In this document: in pieces, positions 3,343-63,951 of the stretch | How positions within the stretch are numbered: the stretch's first letter is position 1 | Layout: each line of letters starts with the position of its first letter | Notes under the pieces: generated by a model | Database searches by the model: none | Seen by the model: only the letters and a program-made list of their open reading frames with translations | Told to the model about the DNA's origin: nothing | Assembly (NCBI GenBank): GCA_025449115.1 | Contig: JAHLKC010000015.1 | Location: 1-64,000 of the forward strand | Length of the DNA stretch: 64,000 nt | Direction: 5' to 3' | DNA from: Chytridium lagenaria | Taxonomy: Eukaryota; Chytridiomycota; Chytridiomycetes; Chytridiales; Chytridiaceae | Position numbers and translations under genes: made by a program

Positions 3343-6300
3343 TCATGTTTTCTGACCAACAGTACCAGAGTTCAATTCGCTTTTCGTCGATTTGCTGGTT
3401 AATGTAGCGGTGTTTAACGTTGATGTGTTTAACACGGTGGTGATGAAGCGGGTTTTCGCGATGTCTATGGTAGAATCGTTATCTTGATAAATCACGGACA
3501 CACCGGGATGTGTCAGACGAGATTCTGTCATCAAGTTTTGATACCAAATCATTTCGCGTGTAGCTTCGTTTAAAGCGATAAGTTCAGCTTCACTCGAGGA
3601 TTGAGCTACAACTGTTTGCTTTTTGGATTGCCAGGAGATGGCGGCTCCACCGAATAAAACAACGTAACCGGTACGTGATCTGAAGTCATCTTCGCAGGCA
3701 TGACTTGCGTCTGCATAACAGATGGGAACTTCAGTGAGACTTGTGATAACGTGTTCGCCGTTTTGCAATCGTGAGATTGTCTTTGTATGAGCTTTTGTGT
3801 AGAAAAGACCCATGTCATAAGTACCGATGAGATAGCGTAAAACTCGTATAACCGCAGCGAAGTCGTGTTCATTGGGTTTGGCCTGATATTGGCCGAGTTT
3901 GCTTATTACAACGCAAGATCAGGTCGCGTTTTCTGTGCAAGATACGCGATACGTTGTAATAGTGATCGATACTGTGTTTGGCCATCTGGTGTGAGTGGCT
4001 TAGCATCTGGATCATGTTTCCAGTTGACAGCCATAGGGGTTGGCTTAGCCGTAACACCGGTTTCCCATAAGCCGCATGATTCTAATAAATGCCGAGTGTA
4101 GAACTGTTGGCAAATAAAAGTACCGTTATCTTTACGAATGACTTGGATTTTGGTTATCCAGTCCACCGCGCCTGAGGAACCAACTTTAAACCTTTCATCG
4201 GCGCGTGCAATGAATTGTTTGATAGCTGATTCGCGTTCAGCGAGTATAATGATGTCATCGACATATTGAATAGTATGGACTAAACAATCGAATTCCTCAA
4301 AATACTTCAGGAAATGGCAGACATCAGCACGATTGATAGTAAAACCGTTTTCTGAATACCATTGTTTAAGAGTATTGTACCACTCTCTTCCTGATTGGTG
4401 TAAACCGTAAAGAGCTTGAATAAGCTTGCAGACATAAGGAGTTCCGTCTTCTGTGAATCGCTCGAAACCATGAGGCATAATTAAGTAATTAAGCTCGTGT
4501 AAGGTTCCGTTGAGGTATGCACCTGTGATATCTATCTGATAGATAAACAGATTGAGTAAAACCCCAAGTGCTAAGAAGAAACGGATAGTCTTTGAGTTTG
4601 CTACTGGGGAGTAGACTTCGGTGTATTCCGTTCGGAATTTGGCTAAAACCCCGAGCGACCCATCGGGCTTTGAAACGGATCAAGTAGCCTTCTTGGTCGA
4701 ACTTGTGATCAAAGACCCAACGACCATCGATAAGATGTGCGTTGTCGGGTAAGACCACTTCTTCCCATGTTCCTCTGTCTTTGAGCTCATTGTACTCTCG
4801 AAGCATTGCGGCATACCAGTATTTGGCTTCATCAGGCCGAGACATAGCTTCTTCCACGGTAAGTGGGAGAGGTTTGATAGCTGACATTGGAATCCGTTCA
4901 GGTGGAACGGAGCTTGGAGCTGGAGTCGGGAAGACTATGTGTGCCGCGGAGGATTGACGCACTCTATGTGCTTCTTCATTCTCAAAAGTGATCTGGAGTA
5001 TTTTGGACCATTCTGGCGCAGGCGCCATAGATCGAGTCCGCGTGTATACTCCATCATCGCTTTCGGAATCAGATGACGGTTCTGGACTCTCTGGGGGTTC
5101 AATCCCTTCGTTGAGTTCATCATCATATGCTCCTCTGTCTGATGAGAGTCTGCATCTTCGTTATTAACGGAAAGAGGACTGAAGGAAGGTCCCGCGATGC
5201 TGTCTGAACTTGGTTCAGGTGACGGTTGATGTTCGCTAGCTGACGGTATGATTAACGTAACTGGATCAAAGGTGATCGTGTATTCAGTTTCGTCGTCATC
5301 ATCTACTTCCGTTAGTGGAATGGAAGTGTCTAGCATTGTATCCTCATCAGGTGATTCCCGAGATGGTGTTCTTTCTCTTTCTGCGTCTGGTGCATGTAGA
5401 GATTTCAGAGGATACGTGAACAATGCTTGTTCGAGGGTTTTCTGGCTAGGTTGATAACCAAGAAACACGTCTTTATGAAAGTAGACGTGATAATAATCTG
5501 GACGCGTCGGGTCCGGTAATTATAGACAGTTACAATTTTCATTGATTGTCCTTCATACCCCAGAAATAATCCTAACTCTGTTTTAGCATTTGTTCTTAAC
5601 GCGCGGCGCTGTTCCTTAAACAAGTATATGCTAACAAGAGTGCCGAAGGCATGGATTTTTGATAAATCTGGTTGACGATTGAGAAATCGTCGGTATGGAA
5701 TATCCTTAATGGTTGAATGCCATAGGACGTTCTTCGTTAATGCACCATACTCTAGTGCATACGAGTATAATGACATAGGCAGCTTTGCCTGTGTAAGCAT
5801 ACATGAGGCGATGATTTTCAAACTTCTAATTGATCGTTCAGCTAACCCGTTAAATTCTTTCGAATAGGGTGGTGATGGAACAACAGATATAGGTGGAAGT
5901 TTGTTAGAGCAGAAATCACGAAGAGTATTCGTGAGGATTTCACCAGAATCGGTTCGGAGTTCAGCGACGTGTTCTCCTGATTCATTCTCTAATTGACAGA
6001 TCATCGAAATAGTAACGGAGACGATTGCGACTTATCCTTCACAAAGCGGATGTTTATGAAGCGCGTGTATTCGTCAACGAAAGGTATCCAGTAATGTTCA
6101 CGTTGTATGCTTTGACACGGTAGAGGTACTGTATCAGCGTGAAGTCGGAAAAGTTTCCGTGGTGCTGGATGCGTCGTCGCGTATATTGGACGCTGGACGG
6201 CTTTGTTTTGAGCGCAGATTAAACAGTTTTCAATAATTGAGGAGTTAATGAAATCAATGTTTGTGCGTCAAAATGCAGTTTATTTAACTGTGCATCTACA

Positions 6301-8441
6301 TGAGTCATCGTTCGAATGATAATTCGGGGATGAACGTGTCCAAATCGTTTGTGCAGTAAAACGATCTCCTTTATGAACGCGTCTGTTCTTCTTTCTAGAA
6401 GTCCAGCTGTAGAAGTACGATTAGTGTGAGCGACTATAATCGGTTTGACTAAACTTACATCAAAGTCAATAAGTTCAGCGTCACTTGCGTCGGTACTGAC
6501 TGCGTTCCCAAAGGGACTCCAGTACTGTGACCTTCCGCGTCTGTAGTGTTGCAACACTCAATCCAGGTTTCGAGATCGAAGTCCTGGTCAGACGAAGGGT
6601 GAATGGGCTGAGAAGCGTCCATGACGGTTGAAGATGCTCGGTGGGCTTCAACCGTTGTATCCATCGGAGCCGGAGCCGTGGAGTATGATGAGAGTAGGTG
6701 ATAAAGGTCACCAACACGGCGGCCGATATTGATACTCCTGCCTTCTCTGTTAAGATATAAGTATACCTCGTCGGCGGAGAAGACGATAAGATCCTGGGAT
6801 CCCTCAATCATCCCAAGGACAGAGCAGAGTGGTTCTGCAAGGTCAGGAACAAAGAGAACGTTTTTGATGACGCGTTGATGATCACCAAACGTGTAGACAA
6901 TATCCCCATACCCGCGGACAGGTACGGTTCTATCATCTGCAAGGTAGACCTTGCCTTCACTGTCTGCGGGAAGATAGTGGAGTCGTTCAAAGAGGTTCTC
7001 ATCCGGTGTCATCCAAGTGGATGCACCTGAGTCAATGAGAGATCCGACTTTGACGTTAAGAGCCTTATGAGCCTTAAGTTCAGCAACGATCTGATCGTTT
7101 ACCTCACTTGGAATGGTCTCAATAGACTGTTGATGCCGAACGCGATTGCCTTTGAAGTGCCGTTTGACGATTGCCGTGATGTCATCATTGCTGAGGGGAA
7201 TCTCAACGTGATTGGCTTTTGTCTTGGCCTTGGTGGCTGTCGGTTTGGTTGTATTGTTGTCGTCCACCTCCATTGCGTCGGATCTTGTCTTTGCTTGCTT
7301 GGCGTCGGCGATGATCGACTTGAGAACAGGGCAGTCCTCAGCCTTATGCTCCTTCTTGCAGATTCCACAATGAGACTTTGACGTTGGCGTGTTATGCTGC
7401 TTCTTCTGCTTTGTCACCCGACCCTTGGAGTTCTGTTTAGAACCCTTTTGGGCGCGACACTCGCGATCATCATGAAAGCATTCACCGTGGATGGTGCAGT
7501 GCTTGATCTCCCGCAGCGATGACTTCGGCGTTTTCCTGTTCTTGCTCTCAACTTTTGCTTTACGAGCCCTGGCGTTAAGGACGTGGTTTTCAGACAAAGA
7601 TGCATTGGCTTCAAGTTGCTTCAAAGCTGTTTGCACTTTCGTCTTAAACTGGTCCACACCTTGGGTGTAGTAGTTAGCAGGTGCCGGAGCACCCTCAGCG
7701 AGAGCAGGAAGGAAGGATGCCGAGCCACCATCATTGACCTTGACGGCAAGGCCAGTGAATTCAGGGACTGATGGAGTGTTATGGGTGAACTTGGCGACAA
7801 GAAGATCGAGCATTTGCCGTTTGTCGGTGTCGTCGCGTAGATCCGCTCGTGAGCTTCCACTAAGTCAATGACTGACTCCAGGTAAGTGATGATCTCCTGA
7901 AGGGAAGCCGATTCACGAAGTTGGAGTTGGGACCATCGCACGTTCCACTGCTGTCCAGCCTGACCGTCCAGATTTCCAACAGTATAGAGCTGACGAAGGG
8001 CAGTTACTTGCTCGGAAGCGTTCACCAATCCTTCAACACGTTTTCGATCACCGGATTGAAAACACTCATCAAGGATAGCCTTTGCAACCTCGTTGGACTG
8101 CAAAGCCTTCTCCCGACGCGTGAGTTCACGATCAAAGTGTGCACGCTCTTGTTGGTAGCTATTAGACCGAGCGGTCCAGTTAGCCATGAGGAGTCGGAAA
8201 TCCTCAAAATCAGCGGGATCAGCTGGAACAACAGGTGGATCGCCAGGAGCGGGAATGACGGGAGGAGCAACGGGAGGAGGAATAACAATACCAGCATCGT
8301 AAAGATGAGAACACCTTTGGATTGCGCGTAAATACGCACTTTCCTCATGTGTTCATCAAACTCAACAACAGTGGTGCCCTTAAACCTCGGCGGACGAAGA
8401 ATGGAAGAGCCAGTTGAAGAAAGGGAAGTGGTAGTAGACAT
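3343..8441 (-). pseudogene. Copia Gag-Pol coding region, frame-disrupted
   Basis: The polyprotein starts at 8441 (MSTTTSLSS) and runs through several frames. Gag occupies about 8441-7400; zinc-knuckle-like cysteine clusters (for example CGICKKEHKAEDC) lie near 7340-7380. The protease motif LIDSGAS is near 7030. The GAG-pre-integrase signature LLHKRFGH is near 6350. Integrase core residues, including the E in the NGLAERSIRSLK segment, lie at 6004-5405. Reverse transcriptase spans about 4950-3900 with YVDDIII near 4260. RNase H spans about 3813-3343 and shows the usual SSSEAELIA segment. At least five frame changes are needed, including one soon after the Gag start. With LTRs this similar the insertion should be young, so the disruptions are either sequencing indels or very recent damage. 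Confidence 0.88.
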
Positions 8442-44355: not shown

Positions 44356-47300
44356 TCAATCATCACTTTCCCGAAATCGATCGCACAACTTCTGCATCTC
44401 TTCCGCAATCTCCCGCGGCTTATCATCCTGCAACACATCCGCAAGTGCTAACCCCGTCGTATCCACCTCCCTATCTTTCAACTCATTATACTTTTCCGCA
44501 TATTTTTCAGGCATCTCACTCGGCAACTCGCACTGAACAGAATCCAAATGCGACACATAAAAGTAGGATCGCCCATGTCCAATCGAAGCTGAATGGAAAA
44601 CATAAAACCCATCACCAAACCACGAGTGCCCAAACTGCTCCATCTCGTTTCGATCAATCCTCGCCTCACACACTCTATCGTTCACAAGAAATTTGACAGA
44701 AAAATGATCCTCAGCCTTCGTAGTATCCATCCAATCGAAATTATACCCATCTTCATGATGACTTATAACATACGCTATATGTGTGAAATGTGAACACGCA
44801 ATATGATCCAATATAAACGCCACGCATTCAATGTCCTCTCTCTTCCTCCCCCACCTCTCTTCATCAAACGTCCACTCCTCCTCTTCTTCAACATTACCAA
44901 CAATCTTCTCCATCGTCCCCATAATCCCTTTCCACTGATAATGCACATCCTCAATATCACTCTTCTTCACCATCACGCCATCACAAAACCTCTCCCTCCC
45001 CTTCTCACTCAATTCCCTCCACATCCAATACACATTCACTTTACATATCGTCGCCGTCCTCCCATCCCATTCAATCTCCTCCTTGAACCCTGCCTTCCTC
45101 TTCTTCATCCACTTAACTGCCAAATCATATGAGAAACCCTTTATGAAAACTTGCCTCCCACCGCCCCCCATCGCCGCGAACGCCGCTACAACAGCACAAC
45201 ATTCCTTCCATCTACTCGGTGCAGAGCTTTTCCATACGTCAATCAGGAAACGGGACGACGCTGCTGGGACTTGGTAACGTCCTAAAGACATTGCTCTACT
45301 ACGACCATCAACAGAAAGTTTCCAAAGGTCACCGTGTTTCAAGATAAAACCGAGATCCGTTAGCACCGTAAGTGTCCACGCGATTTCATCGTCCGACGGT
45401 CGAACGAACCAAGGGAACGAATCGATATCACCATTGTACATGTCGATGATAGAGAGGAGAAAGATATCAAGCTGCGAATTTTTTTAGTGTTTATTATTAA
45501 AAAAAAAACCGAAAAAAAAGAAAAGTGTCCCAAATATCAAAAATACCGCTTTTACCTGCTCGGGTCTAGTAAACGTTTGATGCTCAAAATTCTGTGCCTC
45601 TTTTTCAGAATACAAGCGATAACAGTTCCCAGGCCCCAGCCGTCCCGCTCTTCCCTTTCTTTGCAAAGCAGACACTTTCGTCTAAAACCCCCCAAAACCG
45701 AATGAAATAAAGATTAGCCAGACCATCAAGGAACAAAAAAAGACCACCCACCGTATGTCTCAACCCTGTCCTCTGTATATTCATAATCGGCAACCTCTCC
45801 ACACTAAACTGTAACCCCACATCCACCACATACCCAATCCTCGGAAACGTCAAACTCGTCTCCGCAATATTTGTGCAGAAAATCACACGACGCGTATCAT
45901 CTTCCTCAGAGGACTCGGTTGTATCTTGTATCCGGAGCTTTGCGATGCGTTTCGTAAGTTCTTTGACACGCGATTGACGGGTGGGTAAAGAGGGAGTCGG
46001 GGATGTGGTAATAGGGTCGTCCACGTCGTCGGCCCACTTTATAGATGGATCATAGTTGAAGGTGACGGGCGGCGGTATGGGTAGGAACAGAATTCTCATC
46101 CTGTTTGTTGGCGAAAAGATTGTCGCCAAGCCATACTTCATCTAAGGAATCGATCAGACAAGGACAAATTTCATAAAATAAAAGGAACTGACAGAAATCA
46201 CCATTATCAGAATCCTCATCACCAGACTCCTCGCTTTCCTCACCCTCATCTCCCCCCTCCAACCTCTCACAAATTTCCCTCCATTCCTCCAAAGACCCTC
46301 TTTTCAACACAAAGTCCTTCTCCATATCCGTCACTTGCGAGTGTAATCCAAATGGATAAAGACCTTTTATCTCTTCTTCCGCCAGCGTCTGCACGCCATC
46401 TTCAATGTCCGTCGTTGTGGGAAGAAACACGAGTATATCGCAATTCCCCTTTATTGGAGTGGTTTTGTGGATTTCGCGGACAGTATCGAGAGCGTTCATA
46501 GAGAACTCTTCACGGATGGTGGTGATGGGACCTCTATACGTTTCATCGATGGGATAAATTCTACCGTCAAGCTACAGTCGAAAAGTTAATCCAAGGTGAA
46601 AAGAGGAATAAGTTAAGACACAATATGGTATTTGAATATCGAATCATTACCTCAACCACCTGGCATCCATCAAAAAACCCAGAGATCTTCCCCGCGTCCA
46701 CTTTCGCAGACATCAACACCACCTTCAACTCCCTATTCCTTTCCAACGCTGTCTTCAATACCGAAAACAAAAAATACAAATCCCCCGCATCCTCATGCAC
46801 CTCATCCAACACAACCACCGAAGCCTCCACAAATGCTGGATCCATCTTTGCATAATTCAGCAAACCCCATAAGTCGTGCAATGCAACACTGTCCGATGTT
46901 TAGTGACCCTCGGAGGGCTTCGGCCAATATGGACGCCAACGTCTTCACCGATTTTGCAGCGACGCGAGGTTGCGAGATGGCTCGCGAGGGAGAGTGTGGC
47001 TTGTCGACGGGGTTGGGAGATGAATATAGGTTTTGTTGAGGTGCCACGGAGGAATTGGTCGGTGTAGAGAAAGTGCGGGATGCATGTGGATTTTCCGCTA
47101 CCAGTTGAAGAGAGAACGAGAGTAACACGTGAGCCGTTTATGGTTTTCAAGAGGCTATCGCGGGCTTCATAAATGGGCATACCGCTATTGGCGAAAAAAT
47201 ACAAAAAAATTCAGTATTGATGACAGAGCGAATAATATTTACCTTTCAAACATCTCCAACTCATGTTTTAAAATAACCGACACCTTTTGAATAATCATAC

Positions 47301-50071
47301 TCGCCTCAGGTTTCGCCTCTACATTAACAAGTATACGATAACAACCCCTCACAACCTCCTCCAAAGCTTTATAACAATCCATCGTCCTTTTCGCCGTTTT
47401 ATCAAGCAACGCAAGCCTCTCAAACCCATCCAACTTCCCAATCGTCTTGATATCCATCATCGCCTTGATTTTTGCAAATTCGTTATGATGCATCTCTAAC
47501 GCCAGCTTCGACTCTAACGCTACTTTGCAGCAATGCAAACAAATATCTTGGGAAAGGTACCTTAGAAATGTCGCACTAGTCTCTTCATCGATAAGATGCG
47601 TCACTTTGGGAACTTGGAGTAGACGTTCGCCTATATTTGCCAACTTTACGCCTAAATCCACGTTCTCACGATGCAACGGTGGGATGAATGTCGACACAAA
47701 ACCAGGAGAAACCCAAGTACGATCTTTATCAACAGATTCCTCAAAGAACGTCCACACGACCTCCATGTGTTCGTTTTCATGTTTAATTTGTTTCAACGCC
47801 ACGTCCATGGACGAGAGGGTTGCCTTAAGAAGTTCAGAGAGAGGTGTTGCCTGTGATGTCCAGTTTGATGTGATAGCTTTTTGGAGACTGACGAGAAGAT
47901 GATCGACTGGAAAGGAGGTGAGGTTGTCAATCCCGAGAGAGAAAAGAGCGTTGAGGGTGTTGCAGAGGAACGTGAACATGGGATTTGATTTTGGGGTGAA
48001 TTTGCGGAGGTCAGAAATCAGGGGAATCCCAGACGTCCGATGTACGGGGTGTTGGAAAATGCAGTAAGGAGGGAGATAAGATTGGGTTTTGTCAACGCTG
48101 ATGTTTGTTTGCGTTTTAAAGGATCAACTACGAAAGTCGGTTAGAAAAAGACTTTTGATAACATTACCTTCCAGTTTTAGTTTAGTTGATGCGTCGTCCA
48201 CTAACTCCAGTAAAGCATTTTGACGGTAATCAAACGGTTCATGTTGTTTAATGGACGACACAATACGATCATCCCAAATCACCAAGAACACATCCCCATC
48301 CAAATCCCCACCGTTACACATATCAGCAGCAGGTCGCGTCCCTTCCACCGAAAAGACAAGCACGTCCACCAAATGATTGAGATGCGGTTGATCCACTGCC
48401 TCTAAAACAACAATATCACCAGGGTGATAACACGGATTCCTCATCACGCACACTTTTCCGCGAATCGTCTTTGCAGTTGGCCCTTCAGAACTCGTTGATG
48501 GCATCGAAACCCTCACGAAACACTGTCCTTCACGCAGCTGACCCCACACGTCTGCAACACCAAACAGACGTCGCGAGCCTAGCAAAGGAAGGAAAAATCT
48601 ACGCCTGGAATCTTCAAAGTCCAACTCGCCGTCATCGTCGTAAGAATTATCTTTTAACCGTTTGGACCAGCTCGACGTCTCAGAGTCTCGGAATTGCTTT
48701 AACCCACGCCACATTTTGCGGAGCGTTACTTCACGGAGGTTGTCTTCTTCAGGAAGACGGAGCGTTAAAACCAGCTTGTACAGAACATCATGGCGGCCCC
48801 GGAGGAAGAGGAAGTCCATCGCGGCCCACACATCGGCCAACATGTGGGTGAGTGCGGAAACGTATTGCGCGTAAAGGTTCTGAAGCGTCTATTGTCATAA
48901 ATGACGTCAACAAAGTTCATATACATATACATACAGAAAAAAAAAAACCTACCGTTGCGTTGACCCCACGTTCCAACAGCAGCGCTGCGACTTGAGCGTT
49001 GATGATCCCGCATGCCTCTGGTTTCGAATGGCCTATAATGGCCAGATGCAGCTTTGGACCATAGAGTACAGACGTGAGCTTTTTTGTCTGCATTCGATTC
49101 CTCATTTCATTCGCAATAGCTTCATCCGCTGCAGAACTTCCTCCAGGAGACCAATAGTCATAGCTCTCTAAGCTTAATTTTGGATCTTGGACCTCCAATT
49201 TTCGCATAGACTCTCGAACAACGATAGTACGTTTTCCCGACATCTTTGGATCAACAACTAACACTCCCTTAACACCTGCCATACGAATCTGCAAAACACT
49301 CGGAATGGACGTAGAATTAGAATTGTTGCCGGAAGACACAACACCGCGGTGTTGCTCCCACAGAAAAGATGCAGCATCCACAGAGACCCTTCCACACCCA
49401 TCCGTAAAACAATACCCATCTCTTTCGATATCCACTTCTACCTTCACCTCCATCCTTGACAACGTCACCACTTTTGGAAGATGATTGAACAGCAATCCAG
49501 CGTATTTTATGTATTTCGCTGCAGTCTTGCATCGCGAGAGTCCTAGCACCTCCTGAATAGGTTCAACCAATTTCCGGGGTGCCATGATACAACCACGCGA
49601 TCCATTGCTTTGACTCTTTGTGAATGCCAAAAAGCCCCATCGCTGATACCCTTTATCGAGAAAGGATGCATAGCTTTTGAGGTGGTCGTGGTTTGAGAGG
49701 TCGCCGTCGAATCTTACATAGATATAGTGCTCTCCTATCTGCAGAAGCTTTGACGCTATGCAGTTCAAAGCTTCACCACTCCCCCGAGCAGCATCGGCGT
49801 ACTTGATTTGGTTCGGACGGAATGATAGGATGGCTTTTCCCACCCGCTTTTTCTTGTCCCCGTTGCGGGTCTTGTTTCTCCCGCCATTGAAGGACGCAAC
49901 CAAAACTTTTTCAAGGTTCTTTGTAGACTGTTCTTGCTTTGATGATGTTGATGGTAGAATTCGCATGATTCGGATGTTTTGGATGACGGAGTCAGGATGG
50001 TCAAGGGACGGACTTGACGTCGCTGGCTTTAAGCCTTCACCTCTCTGTCCTGAAGACGACATTTTCCACAT
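44356..50071 (-). CDS. RNA-dependent RNA polymerase joined to a DEAH-box helicase
   Basis: Minus strand. Exon 50071-48953 holds the RdRP neck and first core part (KYIKYAGLLFNHLPKVVTL, GYCFTDGCGRVS, PSVLQIRMAGVKGVLVVDP). Exon 48888-48168 holds the second core part with the catalytic loop GGDLDGDVFLVIWD and CVMRNPCYHPGDIVVLEAVD, diagnostic of the eukaryotic RNA-silencing RdRP family. Exon 48127-47242 carries the RdRP tail and a helical linker. It splices in phase (donor 47241, acceptor ending 47185) to exon 47184-46651, which begins the helicase: GMPIYEARDSLL, SSTGSGKST (Walker A), QPRRQA, VVLDEVHE (DEVH), SAK. Exons 46571-46202, about 46141-45752, 45681-45556 and 45471-44356 add FLPTTTDIED, CTNIAETSLT, QRKGRAGRLGPG and an HA2-like tail. 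One-base slips are needed near 48018 and 46885, and the 46202/46141 junction is out of phase. The probable role is double-stranded RNA synthesis in silencing. The RdRP N-terminus is short for the family. Confidence 0.8.
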
Positions 50072-61819: not shown

Positions 61820-62019
61820 GGGGACGGGTTGCGGGTGTAGGGTTAGAAGAGGTTTGGAGGGTTGTGGGGAGGGTGGGAGGGGTTTTGGGAGACGCACCCT
61901 ATGGTGAGTGTTGTGAAGAGATATTTGCCGGTTTATAGGATGTGGGGGTGGGAGGATTTTAGGTTGCCTGGGGGGGAGGTGAGGGAGGGGTTGGGGGTGG
62001 GAAGGCTGGAGAGAAGGTG

Positions 62020-63951
62020 ATGGTTGCGACTTTGGAGAAGATGACGAAGTCTGTAGAGGAGATGGGGAAGGGGGAGGTGGGTGGGAGTGATGTTGGCGCG
62101 GAGAAGGGGAAGGTCGTTTATGATGCGGTTGAGAAAAATGAACATGATGTGATAGACGGTGGGAAGCAGTTGACGAAGGCGGAAAAAGGTCAATTGAAGG
62201 AAGGCGATGCAAAGGATGAGTGGACAGGGAAAAGTGGTAAGGAGAAGGAGGGAGGAAATGGGAAGGAGGGAGATGGGGAGAACGCGGAGGACAAAGTGAA
62301 AGTGGTGAAGGAGGGTGAAGGGATGAGGGGAAAGGATTTAAATATCTTGAGGGATACGAAAGATGATAAGGAGGTGAAGGGTGATGGGGCAAAGGAGGGG
62401 ATGAAGGGGAAGGATTTGAATATTCTAAGGGATCCGAAAGATGATAAGGAGGTGAAGGGTGATGGGGCAAAGGAGGGGATGAAGGGGAAGGATTTGAATA
62501 TTCTAAGGGATCCGAAAGATGATAAGGAGGTGAAGGGTGATGGGGCAAAGGAGGGGATGAAGGGGAAGGATTTGAATATTCTAAGGGATCCGAAAGATGA
62601 TAAGGAGGTGGAAGGTGATGGGGTAAAAGAGGCGATGAAGGGGAAGGAATTGAATATTTTACGAGATCCGAAAGATGATAAGGAGGCAATGGGTGATGGG
62701 GCAAAAGAGGTGATGAAGGGGAAGGATTTAAATATCTTGAGGGATCCGAAAGATGATAAGGAGGCAATGGGTGATGGGGCAAAAGAGGTGATGAAGGGGA
62801 AGGACTTGAATATTCTACGAGATCCAAAAGACGATAAGGAGGTAAAGGGTGATGGGGCAAAGGACGGGATGAAGGGGAAGGACTTAAATATTCTACGAGA
62901 TCCGAAAGATGATAAGGAGGTAAAGGGTAATGTGGTGAAGGAAGGGATGAAGGGGAAGGACTTAAATATTCTACGAGATCCAAAAGACGACACCGAAGAA
63001 GTGAAAGTGCTGACACCAGCTAAGGCCGCAGAGATGGTCAAAGATGCATTAAAAATTAAGGACCCAAAGCCGGATGGCAAGGAACCGATGAAGGGAAAGG
63101 ACTTGAATGTTATGAAATTTACGCATGACGATAATATATCTTTGGAGGACAACTATGCGAAAATGAAGGCAGAGGAGGAAGCAGAGGATGCAAGGATCGC
63201 CAAGGACATGAAAGCCGTCAAGGATCTTAAAGTGATTAAAGCCAAGGATGTGCAGAAACTAGCAGGAGATGTTCTACCTGTAAAGGATGATCATCATCAC
63301 GACCATAAAGACACGCCTCCTCAAAACCTTGCCCGTCGTGATCAAAGGAACGGTGAACCCCCGCAGGTCTCTAAGAGCACCGTTGTTCGCATCCCGTCCA
63401 TCCTCGCTGACCCGCCCATCGACGCGTGGTACGTTACACGGAACTCCCGTCTTTTAGATCGCCCCACCACTTCGACCCCCGACACGCTCCTCTCCTACGC
63501 GTCGACGGCAGGGTTCGCCATTACCCGCGTGACGCGAACAGGAAAACCCTACGGCACGTCAGGGACTCCTGCAGACATTTCCACGTTCACCTGCTACGAC
63601 CTCATTGACCATCGCAGCGATGAGTTGTTTGGGGATACCGTGCTGGCAGTGCGTTTTGAATCTGAGATGTTTAGTTTATCCACTGATGATGATGTTGGGG
63701 TGGAGGTGTCGTCGTTCCCCCTTAAAAGCCTTGGTGTTCCTGATGGGTTCCCTACTCGTGTATTTGGGGTGTTTGAGGGGATGGTGAAGGAGGAGAGGAG
63801 GAAGTGGGAGGAGGTGGAGGGACGGAAACGCGTTGGAGGAGTGGTGGTTGGGGTGGCGGTGATGGGGTTGCTGCCGGTGTTGGTGGGGCGTGTTGGTGGA
63901 TTGGTTATAGGCTTTTGGTGGGGAGAGGGGAGGAAGGAGGGTTTTTGGTAA
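62020..63951 (+). CDS. Lysine/aspartate-rich repeat protein with C-terminal membrane segment
   Basis: One long open frame of about 640 residues. After a charged start, nine consecutive 26-residue repeats with consensus MKGKDLNILRDPKDDKEVKG fill about residues 102-325, followed by a degenerate tenth (MKGKDLNVMKFTHDD). Next come a Lys/Glu-rich helix region, a His/Asp cluster (DDHHHDHKD) and a globular-looking domain (STVVRIPSILADPP, YVTRNSRLLDRP, STFTCYDLIDHRSDELFG). A hydrophobic segment (VGGVVVGVAVMGLLPVLVG) closes the protein. I do not recognise the family. The repeats look soluble and highly charged. It directly follows the GT71-like gene and could be its extension by a missed splice or frameshift. 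Confidence 0.6.
   Translation: MVATLEKMTKSVEEMGKGEVGGSDVGAEKGKVVYDAVEKNEHDVIDGGKQLTKAEKGQLKEGDAKDEWTGKSGKEKEGGNGKEGDGENAEDKVKVVKEGEGMRGKDLNILRDTKDDKEVKGDGAKEGMKGKDLNILRDPKDDKEVKGDGAKEGMKGKDLNILRDPKDDKEVKGDGAKEGMKGKDLNILRDPKDDKEVEGDGVKEAMKGKELNILRDPKDDKEAMGDGAKEVMKGKDLNILRDPKDDKEAMGDGAKEVMKGKDLNILRDPKDDKEVKGDGAKDGMKGKDLNILRDPKDDKEVKGNVVKEGMKGKDLNILRDPKDDTEEVKVLTPAKAAEMVKDALKIKDPKPDGKEPMKGKDLNVMKFTHDDNISLEDNYAKMKAEEEAEDARIAKDMKAVKDLKVIKAKDVQKLAGDVLPVKDDHHHDHKDTPPQNLARRDQRNGEPPQVSKSTVVRIPSILADPPIDAWYVTRNSRLLDRPTTSTPDTLLSYASTAGFAITRVTRTGKPYGTSGTPADISTFTCYDLIDHRSDELFGDTVLAVRFESEMFSLSTDDDVGVEVSSFPLKSLGVPDGFPTRVFGVFEGMVKEERRKWEEVEGRKRVGGVVVGVAVMGLLPVLVGRVGGLVIGFWWGEGRKEGFW
62323..62994 (+). repeat. 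78-base coding minisatellite
   Basis: Nine units of 78 bases (26 codons), each opening ATGA(A/G)GGGGAAGGA(T/C)TT. Internal units are nearly identical at the DNA level, and two carry GAGGCAATG in place of GAGGTGAAG, which marks a sub-block duplicated as a pair. Confidence 0.93.

Follow-up and report, generated by a model that had tools for sequence, protein, structure and literature searches.

Within the 64,000-nucleotide stretch of Chytridium lagenaria DNA analyzed here (contig JAHLKC010000015.1, positions 1 to 64,000; hereafter the window), the minus strand from 50071 to 44356 carries one spliced gene of eight exons, as delineated by a custom-written, homology-guided splice alignment (Table 1). 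The predicted protein of about 1,750 residues is, as read from its sequence, a silencing-type RNA-dependent RNA polymerase (RdRP) that is continued by a helical linker and a complete C-terminal RNA helicase of the DEAH/RHA type. A preliminary description of this DNA had placed RdRP motifs ending in GGDLDGD and the motifs of a DEAH helicase on the same strand: Both sets indeed follow one another collinearly on the minus strand, and the polymerase exons match PF05183 with E 6e-26 and 9e-42. The corresponding scores of 91.7 and 144 bits exceed the curated cut-off of 23.8, which places this half in the silencing RdRP family, and the DxDGD catalytic loop is present as GGDLDGD in all six models built from this genome. 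On the helicase side, motifs I, II (DExH), III, V, and VI are all found, with motif II reading DEVH and not DEAH. GGDLDGD, TGSGKST, QPRR, LDEVHE, LMSA, FCTN.AETSLT, and the motif VI core GRAGR are invariant in 11/11 aligned chytrid relatives.

The helicase part scores weakly in exon-wise Pfam scans, with exon 6 matching PF00271 at E 1.3e-4, slightly under the curated cut-off. The sequence matches of exon 4 in the PDB include PRP43, DHX8, and HrpA; for the entire window helicase the listed 60 of 70 PDB sequence matches, and for the family profile the listed 60 of 77, are DEAH/RHA proteins as judged from their names, and not Dicer/RIG-I-like helicases. On the C-terminal exon, the Pfam models for HA2 and OB gave no sequence match, and a Pfam HA2 search of the genome did not pick up the window locus. 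Folding of this exon with AlphaFold together with 11 relatives yielded a confident model (predicted local distance difference test, pLDDT, 84.4; predicted template modeling score, pTM, 0.83), for which Foldseek found 107 matches in the PDB (E up to 0.001): The listed 50 of these are by title DEAH helicases or complexes containing one, aligned over 317-389 columns, the best among them being Dhr1 (6h57, E 1.4e-7), followed by DHX37 and HrpA. Taken together, the model and its matches indicate that winged helix, ratchet, and OB fold are present although Pfam HA2 misses them, because the domain is too diverged for the Pfam model and is recognized by structure instead. The helicase is thus of the DEAH/HA2 type that had been proposed at the outset, and a Dicer-type helicase can be rejected on the C-terminal position and the listed PDB matches.

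Between the two halves lies a linker whose AlphaFold model is all-alpha and uncertain (pLDDT 70.7, pTM 0.45), and whose conservation is moderate, with 0.31-0.49 per 50-residue block versus 0.60-0.77 in the blocks of residues 801-1000. The intron that follows it produces in-frame stops when read through. The preliminary description had connected the halves by an exon at 48127-47242 whose donor and next acceptor keep phase: The junction is correct within one base and the phase is kept, whereas the connecting exon is not open, being interrupted by a one-base frame slip near 48,021. In the genome as a whole, PF05183 gave 13 matches at six places, namely the window, position 66-68 kb of the same contig (C15), and the contigs C37, C158, C102, and C145. 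At all five other loci linker and DEAH pieces follow downstream in identical order, and in 6/6 splice models the boundary intron, 44 to 138 bases in length, lies in phase 2 at the same residue. The loci on C37 and C158 share 98.0% identity and are apparently two copies of one locus. An RdRP without a DEAH helicase was not detected in the genome by the PF05183 search (E up to 0.001). The closest paralogue, L009, lies outside the window at about 65.9-71.9 kb of C15 and shares 85% DNA identity with the window gene over 2.35 kb; the two are placed head to head on opposite strands, about 16 kb apart, and probably represent an inverted duplication.

Proteins of this architecture are also found in other organisms. 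A full-length search returned 12 chytrid proteins in which RdRP, DEAD, and Helicase_C domains occur together. A profile search added at least 21 proteins with both domains among the best 120 of 424 matches, stemming from more chytrids, Nowakowskiella, Aphanomyces astaci, A. euteiches, Convolutriloba, Clytia, Seminavis, Polarella, and other sources, and a third search contributed six more. With hidden Markov models derived from the chytrid alignment and a threshold of >40 bits each, RdRP and DEAH RecA1 were found together in 39 of the 234 retrieved proteins, a figure that gives no prevalence, as these 234 are the listed matches of family-seeded searches. The RdRP is N-terminal of the best-scoring RecA1 match in 39/39, so that the N-terminal helicase of RrpA-like fusions occurs in none of them. 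Nineteen of the 39 were also scanned with Pfam, with the same outcome except for P0012, whose model has an extra DEAH region in front and is probably a run-on. In P0122 and P0215 RecA1 is present and RecA2 does not exceed 30 bits; both models end there. P0121, P0123, and P0213, which judging from their source names are open reading frames (ORFs) of transcript assemblies, show the same domain order, P0121 without the standard catalytic motif patterns. The fused proteins span ten chytrid genera (Chytridium included), Aphanomyces, the hydrozoan Clytia, the acoel Convolutriloba, the diatom Seminavis, and the dinoflagellate Polarella, the fungal genera other than Chytridium being presumably chytrids. 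Among the individual models, P0008 from Chytriomyces hyalinus (1,541 amino acids) is apparently full-length, and P0119 belongs to the laboratory animal Clytia hemisphaerica. Joined gene models in other genera also speak to the possibility, raised at the outset, that relatives always keep the two halves as separate genes: They do not. Several of the fused RdRPs (P0003, P0007, P0011, P0103, P0106) are filed publicly as the splicing helicase PRP43 or DHX15, and RdRP surveys by name would miss them.

The fusion of an RdRP to a helicase is already known and has been made with different helicases; the C-terminal DEAH version is new. While public databases contain RdRP-DEAH proteins annotated with both Pfam domains, a description of a protein with N-terminal RdRP and C-terminal DEAH helicase was not found among the titles, abstract openings, and excerpts considered from the open-licence PMC literature. 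The RdRPs of Dictyostelium, oomycetes (peronosporomycetes), Hydra, and Nematostella carry an N-terminal DEAD-box helicase that is discussed relative to Dicer in the excerpts considered of PMC4791657, where the Dictyostelium enzyme is implicated in the production of small interfering RNA and the RdRPs of Saprolegnia parasitica are said to lack this arrangement. These enzymes resemble the window gene in that one polypeptide unites a PF05183 RdRP with a helicase, but the helicase of the window gene is C-terminal and of the DEAH/RHA type with winged helix, ratchet, and OB fold. The C-terminal DEAH type is carried by Aphanomyces, a member of the Saprolegniales, the order of Saprolegnia; the excerpts of a second study set the RdRPs of Aphanomyces, Achlya, and Saprolegnia apart from those of other oomycetes and do not mention a helicase (PMC10080066). 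In Dikarya, RdRP and an AAA_11/AAA_12 helicase are combined in one predicted protein (P0125, P0140, P0163). Judging from the Pfam names, we take this helicase to be of superfamily 1 (SF1), UPF1/Hrr1-like; the Dikarya fusions differ from the window gene in having no DEAH RecA1 match and in occupying a separate branch of the RdRP tree, and AAA_11/AAA_12 did not turn up when the eight window pieces and 19 fused relatives were scanned with Pfam. A Branchiostoma RdRP likewise carries AAA_12, according to the excerpts considered of PMC6396948. PRP43/DHX15, HrpA, and DHX37/Dhr1 share the DEAH core and the C-terminal winged helix, ratchet, and OB fold with the window helicase, yet are unattached to a polymerase, and the fused helicases form their own group. 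The catalytic half of the window RdRP aligns with plant RDR2 (7roz, E 2.3e-31, with the DLDGD loop aligned) and with QDE-1 (2j7n, E 2.6e-14), neither of which is known to contain a helicase. As a separate observation, the predicted protein P0053 from Podochytrium has a protein kinase domain at the N-terminus of a canonical full-length RdRP.

What might a polymerase gain from such a partner? DEAH helicases such as Prp43, Prp22, and DHX36 translocate on single-stranded RNA in the 3' to 5' direction, which is also the direction in which RdRPs read their template. Consequently, a DEAH motor placed on the template would run the same way as the polymerase, unfolding structure and removing bound proteins in front of the site of synthesis; Dicer and Argonaute would thereby be supplied with long double-stranded RNA. 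Judging from the domain content, we consider it rather probable that RdRP, linker, and DEAH helicase act in this way as one protein, with the helicase serving as the built-in motor of the polymerase in small-RNA amplification. As no RdRP devoid of a DEAH helicase was detected in this genome, such amplification, if it occurs, would rest on the RdRP-DEAH family. The main rival explanation, which we regard as unlikely though stronger than those that follow, assigns the helicase a role in selecting or clearing the substrate: In the manner of Prp43, it would strip protein from aberrant transcripts and hand the RNA to the attached RdRP. Among the PDB matches listed, the closest solved relatives by sequence are indeed Prp43/DHX15, and the excerpts considered of a review report that the Cryptococcus silencing factor Rde1 associates with Ago1 and Prp43 (PMC7763443). 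However, L026, by eye the Prp43 of the chytrid's own genome, groups with unfused DEAH proteins and not with the fused ones.

The history of the two halves was traced in separate trees. The first DEAH tree comprised 101 rows and omitted P0006 and P0121 (without anchor motifs) as well as P0012, P0104, P0106, P0108, P0113, P0122, P0215, and L011. For the careful trees, long-branch rows (unfused P0034, P0042, P0071, P0093, and P0096, fused P0123) and 23 near-identical unfused rows were dropped; on the remaining 72 rows and 492 columns, 34 fused and 38 unfused proteins are separated by one branch (98/96). The length limit of the search had excluded short DEAH proteins such as Prp43, for which reason eight DEAH helicases of the own genome were added, joined from ORF pieces and by eye including Prp43-, Prp2-, Prp16-, and Prp22-like members. 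The enlarged tree again separates 34 fused from 46 unfused proteins (99/98), a split found in 100% of 200 bootstrap trees. From the RdRP tree, fused proteins with a short or defective N-terminus (P0005, P0009, P0011, P0012, P0106, P0108, P0123, P0213, P0214), P0121 (without anchor motif), and L011 (a near-copy of L010) were omitted, and of the 42 unfused proteins named the 28 with the anchor motif were included. The careful RdRP tree, also without P0095 (long branch) and L010, contains 60 rows and resolves a group A of chytrids, Aphanomyces, and others (25 rows, 100/100) and a group B of animals, diatom, dinoflagellate, and others (15 rows, 100/100). For 29 fused proteins, 16 of 26 splits recur in the trees of both halves, whereas shuffling the labels 2,000 times gave 0.21 shared splits on average and never more than 3. 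These sequence trees suggest that RdRP and helicase halves have largely travelled together, and their shared history is best explained by a single fusion event, either before the lineages split or passed between them. We propose tentatively, and at a little short of an even chance, that RdRP-DEAH proteins may constitute a distinct class of eukaryotic RdRP that arose once and in which the template motor is hard-wired. This class would be old enough to occur in fungi, animals, and stramenopiles alike, would be the only RdRP type that some chytrids have kept, and would have escaped notice since the helicase half can dominate annotation.

Group B proteins also touch on the DEAH11-type helicases, which contain RBR/IBR and KH domains: Several CxxC clusters near the ends of P0115, P0116, P0119, P0120, and P0210-P0213 are suggestive of RING/IBR fingers, and P0211 has a weak match to KH_DEAH11 (E 0.0023, under the cut-off). 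Pfam RING/IBR models gave no match in the four B-type proteins scanned (P0116, P0119, P0120, P0211). In contrast to the fused proteins, DEAH11-type helicases are without RdRP and group with the other unfused DEAH proteins; an RdRP-DEAH-KH-RBR architecture of the B type is possible.

Several points weigh against the reading of the window gene as one intact fused protein whose halves have a largely shared history. The trees of both halves are unrooted. The DEAH tree of all 101 rows puts two long-branch unfused proteins, both absent from the later trees, among the fused ones and requires two label changes instead of one. The branch that separates A plus B from SF1-type and canonical RdRPs is supported by 96/79, which is below strong, and the first quick RdRP tree leaves A, B, and the SF1-type unresolved. 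In the RdRP tree of 34 fused and 28 unfused rows the label "fused" needs eight changes, six of which are forced by starred branches. Moreover, the window protein served as the guide for all splice models, so that the placing of the junction intron at the other loci leans on it, and the window copy itself contains two one-base frame slips, near 48,021 and 46,863. The scatter of the label is due to seven helicase-less models that sit within groups A and B (P0114, P0117, P0216, P0217, P0218, P0220, P0222), while two others, P0219 and P0221, are outside the RdRP tree. P0114 from Nowakowskiella ends within motif I and is likely a truncated model; P0216 from Clytia and P0217-P0222 break off within the linker or close to it and could be either truncated models or genuinely separate RdRPs, in which latter case the helicase would have been lost, or gained, more than once.

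The two slips, both absent from the preliminary description and the second located between helicase motifs I and II, raise the question of whether the window copy is a decaying pseudogene, with working members only among the paralogues. This would be in line with a close paralogue on the same contig, and a second copy of the window locus by which to judge the slips was not found in the genome, where the search gave only the 85% paralogue L009 and weaker matches. L009 is open at both slip positions but has slips at other places, and the splice models of the other five loci likewise need 10 to 19 slips each, some of which, in diverged stretches, are presumably alignment artefacts. A control is offered by L010 and L011, which over 7.6 kb differ by 58 mismatches and 59 gaps: 50 of the gaps are one base long, and 34 of these 50 adjoin an identical base, a pattern that points to assembly errors. 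The alternative control, HSP70, in which 13/32 matches contain stops, is weaker because introns that are read through also give stops. Between the window gene and L009, the ratio of nonsynonymous to synonymous substitution rates amounts to 0.29 for the RdRP, 0.30 for the DEAH core, and 0.33 for the C-terminus, values that indicate purifying selection on both halves; in the linker, with 73% amino acid identity, it is 0.51. Apart from the slips, the window model contains no internal stop codon. Accordingly, we consider a pseudogene quite unlikely and the two slips probably assembly noise, although one or both may be real.

It is still less likely that the fused enzyme works outside RNA silencing, for instance in RNA repair or turnover. 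A role unrelated to RNA interference has been proposed for Branchiostoma RdRPs, according to the excerpts considered of PMC6396948. The C. lagenaria genome, however, contains matches to the Argonaute and RNase III families, Piwi being matched on five contigs and RNase III on three, of which C45 has two matches at a short distance from each other, and the polymerase half belongs to the silencing family PF05183.

That two neighboring genes, one for an RdRP and one for a helicase, are joined in appearance alone is very improbable and largely refuted: The deposited C. lagenaria protein P0117 (BC829DRAFT_448127, 881 amino acids) ends ahead of the helicase, and eight further relatives (P0114, P0216-P0222) are modeled without a complete one, but the boundary intron splits a codon at the identical place in 6/6 splice models, joined models and transcript-type ORFs exist in other organisms, and the trees of the two halves largely match, all of which upholds the single polypeptide first suggested. 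The P0117 model truncates a fused gene and shows that the fusion can hide in annotation: Its seven best tblastn pieces align to locus L013 on C145 with 93-100% identity, and the model skips stretches around frame breaks, though helicase DNA is present beyond its end. Chance juxtaposition was likewise rejected, in view of the six loci in this genome and the 39 retrieved fused proteins.

Table 1. Exons and junction intron of the fused gene in the window; aligned exon 8 spans 45471-44359, ahead of the stop.
Feature	Position	Strand	Basis
Exon 1: N-terminal extension and first half of RdRP; predicted start	48953..50071	-	PF05183 positions 69-261, E 6.1e-26; spliced model
Exon 2: catalytic half of RdRP, GGDLDGD at about 48311-48291	48168..48888	-	PF05183 positions 333-473, E 8.6e-42
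Exon 3: end of RdRP region and all-helical linker; frame slip near 48021	47243..48127	-	Spliced model
Junction intron between RdRP part and helicase part, 58 nt, GTAAAT..TAG, phase 2	47185..47242	-	Splice models
Exon 4: DEAH helicase RecA1, motif I STGSGKST, motif II DEVHE; slip near 46863	46651..47184	-	Spliced model
Exon 5: first part of RecA2 with acidic insert; 3' boundary approximate	46193..46571	-	Spliced model
Exon 6: RecA2, motif V NIAETSLT at about 45871-45848; 5' boundary approximate	45752..46141	-	Spliced model
Exon 7: motif VI QRKGRAGR at about 45663-45640	45556..45681	-	Motif and spliced model
Exon 8 and stop: DEAH helicase winged helix, ratchet-like bundle, OB fold	44356..45471	-	AlphaFold and Foldseek

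Elsewhere in the window, ORFs on the minus strand at 3343-8352 resemble, by eye, a broken Ty1/copia-type retrotransposon (gag-like, protease, integrase, reverse transcriptase, RNase H), and several ORFs at 19-28 kb and 36.6-37.3 kb look like copies of a glycosyltransferase-like gene family. A long ORF on the plus strand at 61963-63951 contains a charged unit (MKGKDLNILRDPKDDKEVKGDGAKEG-like) that is repeated in tandem about ten times.

In well-studied organisms, RdRPs are generally viewed as acting with separate helicases, and little is understood of how small-RNA amplification copes with template structure. A natural fusion identifies the class of the partner helicase and fixes its position, so that the coupling becomes testable on one purified protein. 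The chytrid studied here has several RdRP-DEAH copies, and some of their relatives bear the names of splicing helicases in public records. Should the single origin hold true, the design would be ancient and would have been kept, or passed on, across very distant lineages.

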